NCBI GenBank assembly: GCA_947441065.1
Contig: CANESI010000010.1
Span: 1-64,000 of the forward strand
Reading direction: 5' to 3'
Length of the DNA: 64,000 bases
Source of the DNA: Caulobacteraceae bacterium
GTDB lineage: Bacteria > Pseudomonadota > Alphaproteobacteria > Caulobacterales > Caulobacteraceae
In this document: in pieces, positions 1,952-28,196 of the stretch
Layout of the letters: the number at the start of each line of letters is the position of its first letter
Numbering within the stretch: position 1 is the first letter of the stretch
Program-made: the position numbers and the translations under genes
Notes under the pieces: model-generated
What the model was told of the DNA's origin: nothing
The model's database searches: none
Seen by the model: the letters and a program-made list of their open reading frames with translations, nothing else

Positions 1952-4057
1952 ATGGGTAAATTTACAATCATTGGGGCGCTAACCGCGTCCCTGCTTTTAG
2001 CAGCATGTCAGCCCGGCCCTAAGGCGGGCAAGGTCGATGCCGTTCGCTTGACCGCGGCCGATGCCGATAGCAGTAACTGGATGTCCTATGGACGGACCTA
2101 TTCGGAACAGCGCTTCAGCCCCCTGACTCAGGTCAATACCGACACGGTTGCGAAGCTGGGCGTGGCCTGGTCGCACGAATTTGACACTGACCGCGGTCAA
2201 GAGGCCACGCCTCTGATCATCGACGGCACCCTCTACACCACCACCAACTGGTCCAAGGTCTATGCGTTCGACGCCAAGACCGGCGCGCCCAAGTGGTCCT
2301 ATGACCCCAAGGTCGATGGCAAGCGCGGCTTCAGCGCCTGCTGTGACACAGTCAATCGCGGCGTCGCGGTTTGGAACGGCATGGTCTATGTCGGAGCCCT
2401 CGATGGCCGCCTGATCGCTCTGGATGCCGAGACCGGCAAGGTCAAATGGTCCGTCGTGACCGTCGACCAGTCCAAGCCCTACACCATCACCGGTGCCCCC
2501 CGTGTCATCAAGGGCAAGGTCATGATCGGCAATGGCGGCGCCGAATATGGCGTGCGCGGCTATCTGTCAGCCTATGACGCGGCCACCGGCAAGATGGCCT
2601 GGCGTTTCTATACGACCCCCAATCCAGAGGGTAAGCCAGACGGCGCGGCCTCGGACAAGATTTTGGCTGAGAAGGCCAAAGGCACTTGGTTCGGTGAAGG
2701 TTGGAAGAAGACCGGCGGCGGCGGCACCGTGTGGGACGCCATGGCCTATGACCCAGACCTCGATATTCTCTATATCGGTACCGGCAATGGCTCGCCTTGG
2801 AACCATCTGAAGCGTTCGGACGGCAAGGGTGACAACCTGTTCCTGTCCTCCATCGTGGCGCTCAAGCCCGACAATGGCGACTATGTCTGGCACTATCAGA
2901 CCACCCCCGCCGACAGCTGGGACTATACCGCCACGCAGCACATCATGCTGGCCGAAATGGATATTGACGGTAAGGCCCGAAAGGTCGTGATGCAGGCCCC
3001 CAAGAACGGCTTCTTCTACGTTCTGGACCGCGCGACCGGCGAACTGATCTCGGCCAAGAACTACATCCCCATCACCTGGGCCACGGGCGTCGACCAGAAG
3101 ACTGGCCGTCCCATCGAGGTGCCCGGCGCACGGTATGAAAAGAACCCTGCCCTGGCCATGCCCGCCCCCTATGGCGGTCACAACTGGCACCCGATGGCCT
3201 ACAGCCCCAAGGAAAACCTCGTCTATATCCCAGCCATGACGGTGCCTTTCGGCTATATGGATGACGGCAAATATACCCATCAGCAGGGCAAGTGGAATGT
3301 CGGCATTGATACGCTGGCCACCGCCCTTCCAGACGGTGACGCGGCTCGTAAGGCTGTTAAGGCCATGATGAAGGGCCACCTGATCGCTTGGGATCCCGTC
3401 GCGCAAAAGGCACGCTGGACCGTAGAACACCCCTATTTCTGGAACGCTGGCGTTCTGGCAACAGCCGGTGATCTGGTGTTCCAAGGCTCGGCTGAAGGCG
3501 TTTTCGCAGCCTATAATGCCAAGGATGGCTCCAAGGTTTGGAGCTACAAGACCCATAACGGCATCATTGCAGCCCCCTCGACCTATTCGATCGATGGTGA
3601 GCAATATATCGCCCTGATGGTTGGCTATGGCGGCGCGGCACCTCTGGCGGCGAATGTCTTCCTGCCCGACCGTCAGCGTCTGCCAGGCCGTCTGATCGTC
3701 TTCAAGCTGGGCGGAACCGCCAAGGTTCCCGAACAGCCTCTGGCGGAGAAGATGCAGATCGACCTGACTGGCGTGACCTCTAAGGGCTCCGTCACAGATG
3801 GCTTCGCGCTCTATCACGCCAACTGCTCGGTCTGCCACGGTGCGAGCGTCTCTGGCACCTATCTGCCAGACCTGAAGACATCGCCGATGTTGCTGTCAGC
3901 CGAAAACTGGAAGTCCGTCGTCATTGATGGCGCGCGCCAGCCCATGGGCATGATCAGTTTCAAGGACTATCTGACCAACGATCAGTCCGAATCGATCCGG
4001 GCCTATGTCCTGAGCGAATCCGCTAAGGCCAAGGCCGAAATGGCGAAAGCCAAATAG
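1952..4057 (+). CDS. PQQ-dependent quinohemoprotein dehydrogenase with C-terminal cytochrome c, lipoprotein
   Basis: A 701-residue product that oxidises alcohols (or aldehydes or similar substrates) in the periplasm with PQQ and passes electrons to its own heme. Residues 1-19 form a lipoprotein signal with lipobox LAAC (Cys19). An eight-bladed quinoprotein propeller follows, with the vicinal disulfide pair Cys130-Cys131 (SACCDTVNRG) that stacks on PQQ, the DSWDYTATQ segment typical of the active site, and repeated W-docking motifs. The C-terminus carries CSVCH at 625-629 as the heme c site. The overall plan matches type II quinohemoprotein alcohol dehydrogenases. The lipid anchor is unusual for the family. 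No PQQ synthesis genes lie in the window. Substrate is unknown. Confidence 0.92.
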   Translation: MGKFTIIGALTASLLLAACQPGPKAGKVDAVRLTAADADSSNWMSYGRTYSEQRFSPLTQVNTDTVAKLGVAWSHEFDTDRGQEATPLIIDGTLYTTTNWSKVYAFDAKTGAPKWSYDPKVDGKRGFSACCDTVNRGVAVWNGMVYVGALDGRLIALDAETGKVKWSVVTVDQSKPYTITGAPRVIKGKVMIGNGGAEYGVRGYLSAYDAATGKMAWRFYTTPNPEGKPDGAASDKILAEKAKGTWFGEGWKKTGGGGTVWDAMAYDPDLDILYIGTGNGSPWNHLKRSDGKGDNLFLSSIVALKPDNGDYVWHYQTTPADSWDYTATQHIMLAEMDIDGKARKVVMQAPKNGFFYVLDRATGELISAKNYIPITWATGVDQKTGRPIEVPGARYEKNPALAMPAPYGGHNWHPMAYSPKENLVYIPAMTVPFGYMDDGKYTHQQGKWNVGIDTLATALPDGDAARKAVKAMMKGHLIAWDPVAQKARWTVEHPYFWNAGVLATAGDLVFQGSAEGVFAAYNAKDGSKVWSYKTHNGIIAAPSTYSIDGEQYIALMVGYGGAAPLAANVFLPDRQRLPGRLIVFKLGGTAKVPEQPLAEKMQIDLTGVTSKGSVTDGFALYHANCSVCHGASVSGTYLPDLKTSPMLLSAENWKSVVIDGARQPMGMISFKDYLTNDQSESIRAYVLSESAKAKAEMAKAK

Positions 4058-4102: not shown

Positions 4103-4115
4103 ACCGATCCAGATC

Positions 4116-4148
4116 AACCCTCTCCCTGACCTCAGGGGGAGGGTTTTT
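4116..4148 (+). terminator. Rho-independent terminator of the PQQ dehydrogenase
   Basis: AACCCTCTCCCTGA and TCAGGGGGAGGGTT form a 14-bp stem with one wobble pair and a 2-base loop, followed by a T run. The stem text resembles the arms of repeat family A, so this may be a decayed copy of that repeat now used as a terminator. Confidence 0.75.
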
Positions 4149-4309
4149 CTATGGGCCGCTGACCTGTACCCACATTGACGCGCTGTTCGATCGCGAGGTT
4201 ACCCAAAGAAATTACTATCACTATTTAAGAATTTAATGTTTAAACCACATTTATAGACTGTAAATTGAAATTGATTCCGATAGCTGACAAGGTGTGGATT
4301 CTCAAGACG

Positions 4310-5050
4310 ATGAAAACGATAGCTTTCATTTCGAATAAGGGCGGAACCGGCAAGACCACCCTGTCGGTGAATATGGCGGTCACCGCTCATAACCTTGGAT
4401 ACAGGGTTATGATTGGTGATTTGGACCCCCAAAGATCATCCGTCGACTGGGCCAAAGGGCGCAAGGCGGACGGCCCAGCAGTCAGTCCGTTCAAACGCGG
4501 CTCACTCTTCCCCGCGCAATTTGCGGCGGACAGGGCCGGGCTCGACCTTCTCATTCTCGACACACCCTCAGCCTCTCCGGAAATCTCGCTCCAAGCGGCA
4601 AAGGCGGCCGACCTATCGGTGCTGGTCTCCCGCCCGACGGTGATGGATCTGCGAACCATGACTGACATGGTCACGACCCTGAAGTCACTCAAACTCAAGA
4701 GCGTCATTCTGCTCAATCAGGCCCCATCACAACGCAATGGTCGGGAGCCGACCTTGGTAAAGGAAGCGATCGACATTCTTGTCGGCTTTGGCCTTCCTGT
4801 CGCGCCCTGCTGTTTTCGCTCCCGGACGGCTTTTCAGGCCTCCATATCCTGCGGACTGTCGGCGGCTGAACAGTTTCCAGGCAGCGCGGCTGCGAAGGAG
4901 ATTGAGGCCGTTTGGGCCTATCTTGCTGACCAGCTTGCGCTCAAAAGCAAACTGAAAACCCCTAGCCCAAAGATCGAAACGCCAGAGCGACTACAGTCCA
5001 TCTGGTACAGGCCGCGCATGCAGGTCGATCCCCAAGCCCTTGCAGGCTAG
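4310..5050 (+). CDS. Orphan ParA-family ATPase
   Basis: A 246-residue P-loop ATPase of the ParA/MinD class. It has the deviant Walker A KGGTGKT at 10-16 with the signature Lys10 and Lys15, a DLDPQ motif after strand 2, and a Walker B-like LLILDTPSAS. Such proteins position chromosomes, plasmids or protein clusters. The frame opens at TTG 4265, but the ATP site normally starts close to the N-terminus, so ATG 4310 is preferred; no strong RBS precedes either. No N-terminal HTH and no ParB gene are present, so this is neither a plasmid ParA nor the chromosomal ParAB pair. The next plus-strand gene is TipN-like, and TipN is known to interact with ParA in Caulobacter. Its stop shares a CTAG with the convergent gene at 5047. 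Confidence 0.85.
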   Translation: MKTIAFISNKGGTGKTTLSVNMAVTAHNLGYRVMIGDLDPQRSSVDWAKGRKADGPAVSPFKRGSLFPAQFAADRAGLDLLILDTPSASPEISLQAAKAADLSVLVSRPTVMDLRTMTDMVTTLKSLKLKSVILLNQAPSQRNGREPTLVKEAIDILVGFGLPVAPCCFRSRTAFQASISCGLSAAEQFPGSAAAKEIEAVWAYLADQLALKSKLKTPSPKIETPERLQSIWYRPRMQVDPQALAG

Positions 5051-5352
5051 CCATTAGCGCGCAGGGCAAGCGGGTCTTTGTCGACGTCGTCGTTCACGCC
5101 TTCAGCCAGCCATGCAGCCTGAACCCCGGCAACGGTTAGGCGACATACCAGCCAATCGGGCGCGAGAGGATTGGCGAACCAAGGCTCGGCCCATCCGCAG
5201 TCGACGCAGGACTGAATGATCGCCGAATGGATCCTCTGACCACTGTCATCGAACAGGGGCAGCTTATAGCCCGGCTGGTTCAGACCCATGCACAGATAGA
5301 GCAACTCACCCTTGCGGGGCTGCCTGCCATTCTTTGGGTCAAACCTGCTCAT
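5047..5352 (-). CDS. Small Cys-containing protein of unknown function
   Basis: A 101-residue product from ATG 5352. It contains a CVDCGW motif plus two further cysteines (LYLCMG and LVCRL), which could bind a metal, but no known domain is recognised. It lies between the ParA-type gene (convergent, stops sharing CTAG at 5047-5050) and the TipN-like gene (divergent, about 210 bases away). The acidic C-terminus (NDDVDKD) and Lys/Arg-rich start give a charged protein with no membrane segment. The frame is fully open, has a proper ATG and is not a shadow of another gene, so it is likely real. Confidence 0.6.
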   Translation of the reverse strand: MSRFDPKNGRQPRKGELLYLCMGLNQPGYKLPLFDDSGQRIHSAIIQSCVDCGWAEPWFANPLAPDWLVCRLTVAGVQAAWLAEGVNDDVDKDPLALRANG

Positions 5353-5565
5353 CGCGCCTGAGATTCCAACCCTTGAGACATGATTTCCGAAAACAAAACC
5401 CTATAACGGCTCCATCTCGTCCTTGTCCCCAACAATAGGCATGGCCTATCCGAAGAAAAGCGTAAAAGCATCTTTGCGGACGCCCTGTTACTCGATAGTT
5501 TTCCGGAAGCGGATGAACCCTCCGGCACCTATTTTCCGGTGTGCATGCCGCAGACAAGGTCGGCA

Positions 5566-8286
5566 ATGAAGGTCAAAAAGACATCAGGCTCTGGAAGCGG
5601 CGCGTCCAATATCGGCGATGCGACGACCCAAGCGCCGTTTGACGCCGCCACAGATGGGCCAAACTCTGCCTATGACTATAGCCCAACAGCGCTTGAGCCC
5701 GATGCCGAGCCCCCTCACGGCACCCGCAATCCGCTTGAGAAGGCCTCAGCCGCCATGGCGCAGCGCGACACTGAGACCCGGCTGACCGAAACGGGCTTGC
5801 AGGACGATGACCTTGAGACGCCCACACAGATGCGTTCTGATCAGTCGCTCGGTGCCCTCGCCACAACGGATCAAGCAGTCGAGGTCGAGACCAGCCCAGA
5901 AACCTCTCCCACGCAGCAAGACGAGACGCCCCTCTTTGCGCCGCGCGTTGTTACTGGTCCGGCTAGGCCGAAGACCGCCACCAAGCGCACTACGGCCTCA
6001 CTGGAGGTCTATCTGTTCGCGCTCCTCGCCTCGGCCCTGTGGATCGGCGGATTGCTAGCCTTTGCCGTCGGATTTCAAAGCCGCGTGGGCCCCTTTGCCT
6101 TCGAACCCTTTACCACGGCGGTCTTCGGCTTCTTGGCCCTCGCCCCGGTCGGCTTCATCGGCTTCTCGGCCTTTGCCTTCAATCAAGGTGCCCGGTTCGC
6201 GCGCGAGGCTGAGCGGGCCAAGGGTCTGGCCGAGGATCTCGCCGCTCCGGTCACCAACGCCGCTGTGGCGGCAGGGTCAGCCGTTGCCGCCATCCGTTCG
6301 GAGATCAATGGGGCAACCGATGCTGCCAGCCGGGCGCGGATCGAACTGACCGCCCTGCGCGAAGGTCTGGCCGAAGAAACCCGCCGCCTCCTCGAAGCGG
6401 CCAACGAGTCGATCCGCACGACCCAGCACGTGACCCAAGTGATGAGCGAAGAACGAGAAGCCCTCGGCCGGGTCACCTCTGCGCTCGATCATCAGGCCGA
6501 CCGCGTGGTCAGCAGCGTCGAGCGTCAAGCCCGGATGGTCGCCGAAGCCTCTGATCTGGCGGAGACCCAATTGCGCGAAGCCGAAGCGTCCCTGACCGCG
6601 CGGGCCGCCGACCTGACCGCCGCCGCCGAAGATGCCAATCGCGGCACCCAGGCGGCTGGCCAAGGCCTAGAGGTCCAGATCGAGCGTCTCGAAAGCGCAA
6701 GCCGCACGGTTTATGATCGCATGAGCGACGCCGACGCCGGAATGGATCGGCAAAGGGTCATGTTGTCCGCCACCGTCGACAGCCTAAAGGCCGAGCAGGA
6801 ACAGTTCGAGCAGACCTTTGCTGAACGCCACGACCAGTTGGCCATTCTGGTCAGCCAGTCGATTGAGGCTGCGAACGCCGTGACCCAATCGGTCACCGAC
6901 GCCAATCAGCAGTTCGATGATCTCGCAGGCACCAGCATTGACCGCGCCGAGGCCATGAGCGATGCCGCCCGCCAACACAGGGCCGCCATTGCCAGCGCCG
7001 CTGTTGACTCGCTCAGCGCCCTGACCGACGCATCCCTGCGCCACCGCGACGTGCTTCTGGCTGAAACCCAGTACATGATCGACACGATGGTGCAGGCCGC
7101 CGAGGAGGCCCGTCTGGCGGCTGAAGAGCAGATGGCCCACGTCAAGGGACAGATCGATCAGTTGGGCGAGGCCTCCTTCACCGCTGGTCAACAGGCTGAA
7201 GCCATGTTCGAGGCGCGCCTCAGCGAAGCGCGGACCTTGATTGAACAGTCCGCTCGCCTTGCCGAAGAGGCCGGCGCGCGCTCGTCAGAGCAATTGACCG
7301 AGGGGCTGGTCTCGACCCGCGCCGTGGTGTCTGAATTTGCCGAGCTTCTGGCCAGCCTCGAAGCGCGCATGGCCAACCTGCCCAAGGAAGCGGCACGTCA
7401 GGCTGAGATCGTCACCTCAGGACTGGCTCAAGGCCTGATCCAAGGCATTGAGGACCTGACGCTCGCCGCGCGGCGCGCCGCTGAGGACAGCCAGACCTTC
7501 GATGTTGAGTTCAAAGATCGCGTCCGGCGCAACTATGAGGCGCTCGGCCTTGCGGTCATGCAGTTGGAAGCCATGGGCAAGAGAACCCCGTCGCCGGTCT
7601 CTGCCCCCTTAGCCGAAAGGCCACCGCTGGCGGTCAGTTCCAGCTTACGCCAACCCGTCGCGGGTCGCCCCGTCTTGCGCACGCCACCGGCCTCACCGAC
7701 AAGGCCTGCCCCCCTCACGCGGCCCTTGGTCCGTCCCGACGACAGTCCGCCGCGTCCGCGCCTGAAATTGACGCCCGCCATTGAGGCACCGCCTGCTCCG
7801 ACCCCAGCACCAACCGCTGAACCGGTACCTTCCGTCACACCTGTGAACCTTGGCAGCGGCGCGGAAAAGTCTGACCAATGGACGTGGAAGGACCTTCTGA
7901 CCTCACTGGAAGAGGACTTTGTCGAGGATGAACAGCTTGGGCCGATCTTGGCTCAGGAGATCCACGATATGAAGATCGACACCCAATCGCTTCTACCAAG
8001 GGCAAGCGTTGAGGAGATCGCTTCATCGATCAATGCTGGCGACTATGATGCGGCCTTGGATAAGGTCACCGCCTTGGCCCAGAACTCGATCCGCCGCCTA
8101 GCCAAACGCCTGCAGTCTGACCGGGGCCTGATGACCAAGGCTGAGCGGTTTGTCGAAATTCAATCCAATATGATCGTCGATGCCGCCTCGCGCGATCGCG
8201 AGGGCTTCCTCATGCCGACCCTTTTGTCCAATGAGCAGGGCCGCGCCTATCTGCTCTATGCCGCAGCCCTCGCCGATACGGAATAG
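5566..8286 (+). CDS. tipN: TipN-like polar membrane coiled-coil protein
   Basis: About 906 residues from ATG 5566, which has AAGG 9 bases upstream; GTG 5539 or ATG 5545 would add a few residues. The order is a charged N-terminal region (1-145), two membrane segments (about 149-170 and 181-206), a long Ala/Glu/Arg-rich coiled coil (about 210-660), a Pro-rich linker (about 674-770) and a conserved acidic and helical C-terminal block starting SDQWTWKDLL. This is the plan of Caulobacter TipN, the birth-scar or new-pole marker that orients the division axis and affects ParA-driven chromosome segregation. The assignment rests on architecture and length, not alignment. The epimerase gene follows after 11 bases. 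Confidence 0.62.
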   Translation: MKVKKTSGSGSGASNIGDATTQAPFDAATDGPNSAYDYSPTALEPDAEPPHGTRNPLEKASAAMAQRDTETRLTETGLQDDDLETPTQMRSDQSLGALATTDQAVEVETSPETSPTQQDETPLFAPRVVTGPARPKTATKRTTASLEVYLFALLASALWIGGLLAFAVGFQSRVGPFAFEPFTTAVFGFLALAPVGFIGFSAFAFNQGARFAREAERAKGLAEDLAAPVTNAAVAAGSAVAAIRSEINGATDAASRARIELTALREGLAEETRRLLEAANESIRTTQHVTQVMSEEREALGRVTSALDHQADRVVSSVERQARMVAEASDLAETQLREAEASLTARAADLTAAAEDANRGTQAAGQGLEVQIERLESASRTVYDRMSDADAGMDRQRVMLSATVDSLKAEQEQFEQTFAERHDQLAILVSQSIEAANAVTQSVTDANQQFDDLAGTSIDRAEAMSDAARQHRAAIASAAVDSLSALTDASLRHRDVLLAETQYMIDTMVQAAEEARLAAEEQMAHVKGQIDQLGEASFTAGQQAEAMFEARLSEARTLIEQSARLAEEAGARSSEQLTEGLVSTRAVVSEFAELLASLEARMANLPKEAARQAEIVTSGLAQGLIQGIEDLTLAARRAAEDSQTFDVEFKDRVRRNYEALGLAVMQLEAMGKRTPSPVSAPLAERPPLAVSSSLRQPVAGRPVLRTPPASPTRPAPLTRPLVRPDDSPPRPRLKLTPAIEAPPAPTPAPTAEPVPSVTPVNLGSGAEKSDQWTWKDLLTSLEEDFVEDEQLGPILAQEIHDMKIDTQSLLPRASVEEIASSINAGDYDAALDKVTALAQNSIRRLAKRLQSDRGLMTKAERFVEIQSNMIVDAASRDREGFLMPTLLSNEQGRAYLLYAAALADTE

Positions 8287-8297
8287 CCATCATCGCC

Positions 8298-9278
8298 GTG
8301 CGCCAACTGACCTTTAGCGACGAGCGCTGGCCCATTGCGGGCGGCTTTGTCATCGCGCGCGGGGCCAAGACCGAGGCCCATGTGGCACTGGTCACGATCA
8401 CCCAAGATGGCATGACCGGTCGCGGTGAAGCCGTTCCCTATGGCCGTTATGGTGAGACCATGGCCGGGGTGCAGGATCAGATTGAGCAGGTTCGGGCCGC
8501 CATTGAGGCCGGTGCTGACCTTGCCGCGCTGCAGACCCTCCTGCCCGCTGGCGCGGCCCGCAATGCGCTGGACTGTGCCCTCTGGGACCTTCAGGCCAAG
8601 CAAACGGGCGTTCCCGCCGCCGCACGCGCGGGCTATGCGCGTCTGGACCCAGTCAAGACGGCCTACACCATCAGCCTTGGCACGCCCGAAGCCATGGGTG
8701 AGGCCGCTGCGAGGTCCGCGAAACGTCCCATGCTCAAGCTGAAGATCGGCGGGCCAGATGATCTGGACCGGGTCGAGGCCGTCCGGGTCGCCGCCCCGCT
8801 GACCCGACTGGTGGTCGACGCCAATGAGGCCCTCAGCTTTGACGATCTGGTCCGCCTGGCCCCGGACTTCGCCAAGCTGGACGTCAAGCTGATCGAACAG
8901 CCCCTCAAGGCGGGAGAAGATGAGGCTTTGGAAGGCTATCAGAGCCCGGTCCTCCTCTGCGCCGACGAGAGCCTGCACACGCGCCAAGACATTGCCCTCT
9001 GCGCCCGGCGCTATGGGGCGGTCAATATCAAGCTCGACAAGACCGGCGGCCTTACCGAGGCCCTCCTCCTGAAGGCAGAGGCGCAGGCCTTGGGCCTAGA
9101 GGTCATGGCCGGTTGCATGGTGGCCACGTCCCTCTCTATGGCCCCCGCTATGATCATCGCCCAAGGGGTCGGGTTCGTAGATCTCGACGGGCCACTCCTC
9201 TTGGCCAAGGACCGCGAGCCGGGATTGGAATTTGTTGGCTCCGTGATCATGCCGCCAAGCCGCGACCTTTGGGGGTGA
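8298..9278 (+). CDS. Dipeptide (L-Ala-D/L-Glu) epimerase, enolase superfamily
   Basis: A 326-residue protein of the muconate-lactonising/enolase group. It shows the KxK pair Lys147/Lys149 (LKLKIGG), metal ligands in VDANEA (Asp174), LIEQPL and CADES (Asp223), and the opposite-face base Lys245 (INIKLDKTGG). This set identifies L-Ala-D/L-Glu epimerases, which convert the murein dipeptide L-Ala-D-Glu to L-Ala-L-Glu so it can be recycled. Other dipeptide specificities occur in the family. It starts at GTG, 11 bases after the TipN-like gene, so the two are probably co-transcribed. Confidence 0.88.
   Translation: MRQLTFSDERWPIAGGFVIARGAKTEAHVALVTITQDGMTGRGEAVPYGRYGETMAGVQDQIEQVRAAIEAGADLAALQTLLPAGAARNALDCALWDLQAKQTGVPAAARAGYARLDPVKTAYTISLGTPEAMGEAAARSAKRPMLKLKIGGPDDLDRVEAVRVAAPLTRLVVDANEALSFDDLVRLAPDFAKLDVKLIEQPLKAGEDEALEGYQSPVLLCADESLHTRQDIALCARRYGAVNIKLDKTGGLTEALLLKAEAQALGLEVMAGCMVATSLSMAPAMIIAQGVGFVDLDGPLLLAKDREPGLEFVGSVIMPPSRDLWG

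Positions 9279-26786: not shown

Positions 26787-28196
<1,410 letters not shown>

Follow-up and report, generated by a model that had tools for sequence, protein, structure and literature searches.

On balance, we favour the view that the DNA analysed here holds the tipN locus of a genus within the Caulobacteraceae, with a functional orphan ParF-type ParA ATPase as its neighbour, and that this adjacency is specific to the genus and does not prove that the two genes form a dedicated pair. The window, by which we mean the whole stretch of 64,000 nucleotides, corresponds to contig C10 of a 2.9-Mb genome (G000). Its near relatives are by name 'Caulobacteraceae bacterium' MAGs, whose isolate names suggest a freshwater habitat for the genus. 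Besides the window's own genome, 100 relatives were searched for TipN and ParA; a named collection and 398 genomes of the order were also searched. The features discussed below are as follows.

4111-4150, plus strand: likely terminator after the PQQ-dehydrogenase gene, an inverted repeat (19-nt arms, 84% complementary) followed by a T-run
4190-4309, plus strand: likely parA promoter, an AT-rich upstream region kept in G002 and G006 while the flanking intergenic sequence drifted
4310-5050, plus strand: orphan ParA/ParF-type ATPase gene, 246 aa, with Walker A KGGTGKTT, DLDPQ and LLILDTP; dN/dS 0.11-0.13
5047-5352, minus strand: small-protein gene, 101 aa, with CVDCGW; predicted to adopt a winged-helix fold; its divergent position beside TipN-family genes is conserved
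5353-5565, no strand: divergent intergenic region expected to hold the promoters of both the small gene and tipN; about 96% conserved in near relatives
5566-8286, plus strand: TipN ortholog gene, 906 aa
5566-5586, plus strand: basic N-terminal peptide of TipN, MKVKKTS (family consensus approximately MKxKKRxPLDF)
6013-6174, plus strand: two TM segments of TipN (residues ~150-168 and ~185-203), from hydropathy and alignment
7885-8283, plus strand: conserved domain, composed of helices throughout, at the C-terminus of TipN (residues 774-906; pLDDT >90 for most residues)
8298-9278, plus strand: DgcA-type N-acetyl-D-Glu racemase / Ala-Glu epimerase gene, 11 bp after tipN
26836-26864, no strand: 29 bp separating aspC from a small membrane-protein gene; an orphan parA occupies this site in Caulobacter, and in the window it is empty

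An earlier, sequence-only reading of this DNA had described a ParA-type ATPase without ParB, a small protein with CVDCGW and a large two-TM coiled-coil protein, and the ORF list and translation of the window bear out all three. The genes are real, since they are kept in close relatives at 84–96% identity with dN/dS values of 0.07–0.14. The description of the three as one locus is accurate as far as shared position goes, but ParA and TipN have separate upstream regions and the small gene, on the opposite strand, lies between them. This small gene is convergent with parA and overlaps its stop codon by 4 bases, and as between parA and tipN the 213-bp upstream region belongs to tipN alone. ParA is likely to be its own transcription unit, because the terminator-like repeat precedes it. 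A place for parA in a tipN operon is thus ruled out for the window by the intervening gene and the separate upstream regions; in the related genomes G004 and G005 parA may belong to such an operon. GANTC sites occur upstream of tipN (5362) and of parA (4273 and 4297), but the site at 5362 is absent from locus L142, and we therefore claim no co-regulation of ParA and TipN. Further upstream, positions 1952–4057 encode a PQQ-dependent alcohol dehydrogenase that carries a fused cytochrome c domain, adjoining an apparent TonB-dependent receptor gene.

Judging from its sequence, the protein of 906 residues can very likely be identified as TipN. The published description of TipN gives two TM segments at the N-terminus, followed by a large coiled-coil domain at the C-terminus (PMC9178275). 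The protein encoded in the window likewise shows two hydrophobic segments near its N-terminus, identified by hydropathy, followed by a long coiled-coil region that was read off the alignment rather than taken from a predictor. Pfam yielded no match, whereas a TipN homolog is found in 76 of the 100 relatives, including almost all of the same family, with 32–42% identity outside the genus. Matches in the named collection come from Caulobacter, Phenylobacterium and Asticcacaulis. The ortholog in C. vibrioides DSM 9893 (locus L196) aligns at 35% identity over residues 36–904, so that the similarity to TipN proposed by the sequence-only reading extends through the C-terminal domain. Depending on the start, L196 encodes 882 or 888 aa, again with two hydrophobic segments; the published length is, we assume, 888 aa, and we equate L196 with the published tipN on length and architecture. 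For the gene in the window, a start at 5566 is supported because the first residues, MKVKK, match the start of the orthologs. A conserved helical domain makes up the last ~130 residues, and a search of solved structures returned no match for it (best E 0.89). Compared with TipN of C. crescentus, the peptide reads MKVKKTSGSG, with the PLDF part missing, and the upstream neighbours differ, being ParA and the small gene here. Its orthology suggests a polar membrane location. In genus g21, TipN and FlgI are both absent from all four genomes, which fits a landmark for flagellum placement. There are exceptions: G082 lacks FlgI yet has a TipN-family gene adjoining the small gene, and G043 (85% complete) has FlgI and no TipN match.

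TipN orthologs as a group begin with a basic peptide; a start of the form M[KR]x(1,2)[KR] occurs in 64 of the 75 named orthologs, against 3.5 expected after shuffling. Partner proteins of ParA/MinD ATPases act through a disordered N-terminus that carries positive charge (PMC10241942), and by analogy the TipN peptide is a candidate for the known contact between TipN and ParA. The action of TipN on ParA is only partly understood, and the conserved peptide offers a short contact candidate that can be mutated. The TipN-family genes of family f4 (L276–L298) encode another N-terminal motif in its place, approximately SDIxKKIxSIEPD.

The ATPase of the window retains the deviant Walker A motif KGGxGKT together with the Walker A' and B motifs. 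Its Pfam matches, AAA_31 (50.6 bits) and CbiA (48.5 bits), both exceed the cut-off, and the best solved-structure match is ParF (4dzz). The protein therefore resembles ParF of plasmid TP228 and the NCBIfam 'ParA family partition ATPase' group in size, Walker A motif and closest structure; it differs in having no ParG or ParB partner gene, and its score against NF041546 (125.1 bits) is below the curated cut-off of 180. No parB lies beside it. The only ParB_N match of the genome, on contig C2 (60625–60906), adjoins the best ParA-type match in the genome (C2, 61308–61850), and since the ParB thus sits with another ParA we class the window ATPase as an orphan. Other lone ParA ATPases without ParB are PpfA of Rhodobacter and ParC of Vibrio, two orphan ParAs that serve chemotaxis clusters; unlike these, the ATPase here has no adjoining chemotaxis genes, its neighbours being the PQQ dehydrogenase gene, the small gene and tipN. 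Its dN/dS indicates that purifying selection acts on the protein, which, with the intact motifs and a promoter-like region of its own, would be best explained by a functional ATPase. Most likely it would work like other lone ParA ATPases: ATP-bound dimers would cover the nucleoid without sequence specificity, a partner riding on a protein cargo would stimulate hydrolysis, and the resulting gradient would move or space that cargo.

The genomic location of this ParA family is variable. Relatives outside the genus share at most about 48% identity and are scattered over many places in the genome. Caulobacter has an orphan parA downstream of mreB, flanked by a small membrane-protein gene on one side and aspC on the other (L251, 7343–8005; L103, 13768–14490; gene names read from the sequences). 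The window has the same two genes 29 bp apart with no ParA between them. A tree places the genus's ParA apart from the ParAs at this site and also from those found near flgI. Simple relocation of the aspC-site ParA was rejected, as grouping the two fails an AU test (p 1.4e-4) that is weakened by long branches and by the aspC set not being a clean clade. Some Caulobacter genomes have two tandem ParA paralogs at the aspC site (L255, L256 and L257).

Within the genus, the arrangement of ParA and TipN is consistent in all seven genomes. ParA is beside or directly upstream of TipN in G000, G002, G005 and G006; in G001 and G003 a single contig carries ParA, the small gene and the beginning of TipN; and in G004 two ParA parts are found at contig ends, one adjoining TipN. 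In G005, the two genes share a strand and ParA immediately precedes TipN with nothing intervening, and in G004 and G005 a two-gene ABC transporter (permease and ATPase) adjoins ParA. Outside the genus, the gene order suggested by the sequence-only reading was not recovered. None of the 30 other family genomes carrying both genes has ParA (matches at E 1e-12 or better) within 20 kb of TipN, the nearest case being 23.5 kb in Caulobacter sp. CCUG 60055 (G010). Among the 55 named loci with at least 4 kb of sequence upstream of TipN, ParA occurs within 4 kb upstream in three, all from this genus. The adjacency is best read as a genus-specific arrangement. By comparison, 24 of 69 named loci have a dgcA-type gene immediately following tipN in the same orientation, which makes it a far more conserved neighbour than parA.

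That ParA and TipN nevertheless form a dedicated pair, a refinement of what the sequence-only reading had proposed, is conceivable, if doubtful. TipN would then be a hub like HubP of Vibrio, holding a second ParA at the new pole, with its basic disordered N-terminus stimulating the ATPase and setting cargo direction. We entertain this because TipN binds chromosomal ParA in Caulobacter crescentus (PMC9178275) and TipN orthologs carry the basic peptide, a feature in keeping with the N-termini of other ParA/MinD partners. HubP itself binds ParA1, acting on chemotaxis arrays via ParC/ParP and on the flagellum via FlhG (PMC8789113). The likeness to HubP of Vibrio cholerae, a polar membrane landmark engaging several ParA-type ATPases, is one of functional analogy only, as HubP has a LysM domain and a single TM segment whereas TipN is of another architecture. 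The adjacency is also kept in both sub-lineages of the genus. Between these, TipN (44% identity) and ParA (49%) are the two fastest-changing proteins of the block, against 60–84% for the rest, and fast change of both could suit co-evolving partners. However, the neighbouring genes are equally conserved in position: both sub-lineages keep the block that runs from the TonB receptor to rodA, with the TonB receptor, dehydrogenase, dgcA, MFS and rodA genes all in place. As the whole region is stable in the genus, the persistence of the pair says little by itself. Two further points speak against a dedicated pair: genomes outside the genus lack the adjacency, and in the window each of the two genes has an upstream region of its own. 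Moreover, the N-terminal motif of TipN is found where the ParA relative lies elsewhere or is missing, and could therefore serve the chromosomal ParA. Unless binding is shown, the adjacency is of modest interest.

Alternatively, the orphan ParA might serve another cargo, such as flagellar or chemotaxis complexes, with only its gene lying at tipN, which we regard as unlikely. Relatives in at least four genera (L090, L097, L258, L259, L085, L091, L120 and L080) are located within ~4 kb of flgI, with a rod-binding protein gene adjoining and fliX close by, and possibly represent a flagellar ParA. These are not the sister group of the window ParA, however; the grouping is rejected (AU p 4e-5), although the flgI-site ParAs do not themselves form a clean clade, and the ParA type is missing from the flagellated genera g2 and g14. 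Very unlikely, in our estimate, is a leftover of plasmid partition kept without a positioning role. Plasmids often carry members of the ParF-type family (a match in 3811 records) and the gene family frequently changes place, but no plasmid match exceeds 60% identity, no remnant of a partner gene was seen, and the dN/dS of 0.11–0.13 indicates selection on the protein.

The sequence-only reading had suggested that the cysteine-containing small protein may regulate ParA. As worded, this is not supported: homologs from other genera lack the CxxC, and the linkage of the small gene is to TipN, not to ParA. Homologs were found in 27 of the 398 genomes of the order, in families f1 and f4. In 26 of these the gene is clearly divergent from a TipN-family gene, as recognised by the TipN profile, and the 27th lies at a contig end with a weak match. 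With CVDCGW confined to this genus and C70, in VCRLT, as the only invariant cysteine, a zinc or redox role of the CxxC was ruled out. An AF2 model of the small protein (pLDDT 78 with 4 sequences) has a helix-helix-strand-strand-helix order. Foldseek matches of this model are mostly MarR winged helices, none at E <0.001, and the best fold-comparison Z against a MarR-type structure is 8.0. The small protein (P0002) has no Pfam match, none of 12 members matches MarR, and a profile search of solved structures gave chance matches only. The protein, which is shorter than MarR-type winged-helix regulators, may resemble them in its predicted fold, and we regard this TipN-linked protein as a probable DNA-binding one. 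Possibly it acts as a local regulator of the divergent promoters; no inverted repeat of 8 nt or more that could serve as an operator was found between the small gene and tipN. We read its distribution as loss of the gene in most Caulobacteraceae. In a more far-reaching scenario, which we consider quite improbable, the basic peptide would activate ParA-type ATPases, TipN would be a HubP-like hub that in this genus took on a second, orphan ParA, and the winged-helix protein, which would have accompanied TipN from a common ancestor of at least two families onwards, would control the pair or bridge it to DNA. As a gene found only beside TipN-family genes, the putative winged-helix gene is an unstudied candidate partner or regulator of TipN in lineages related to the Caulobacter model.
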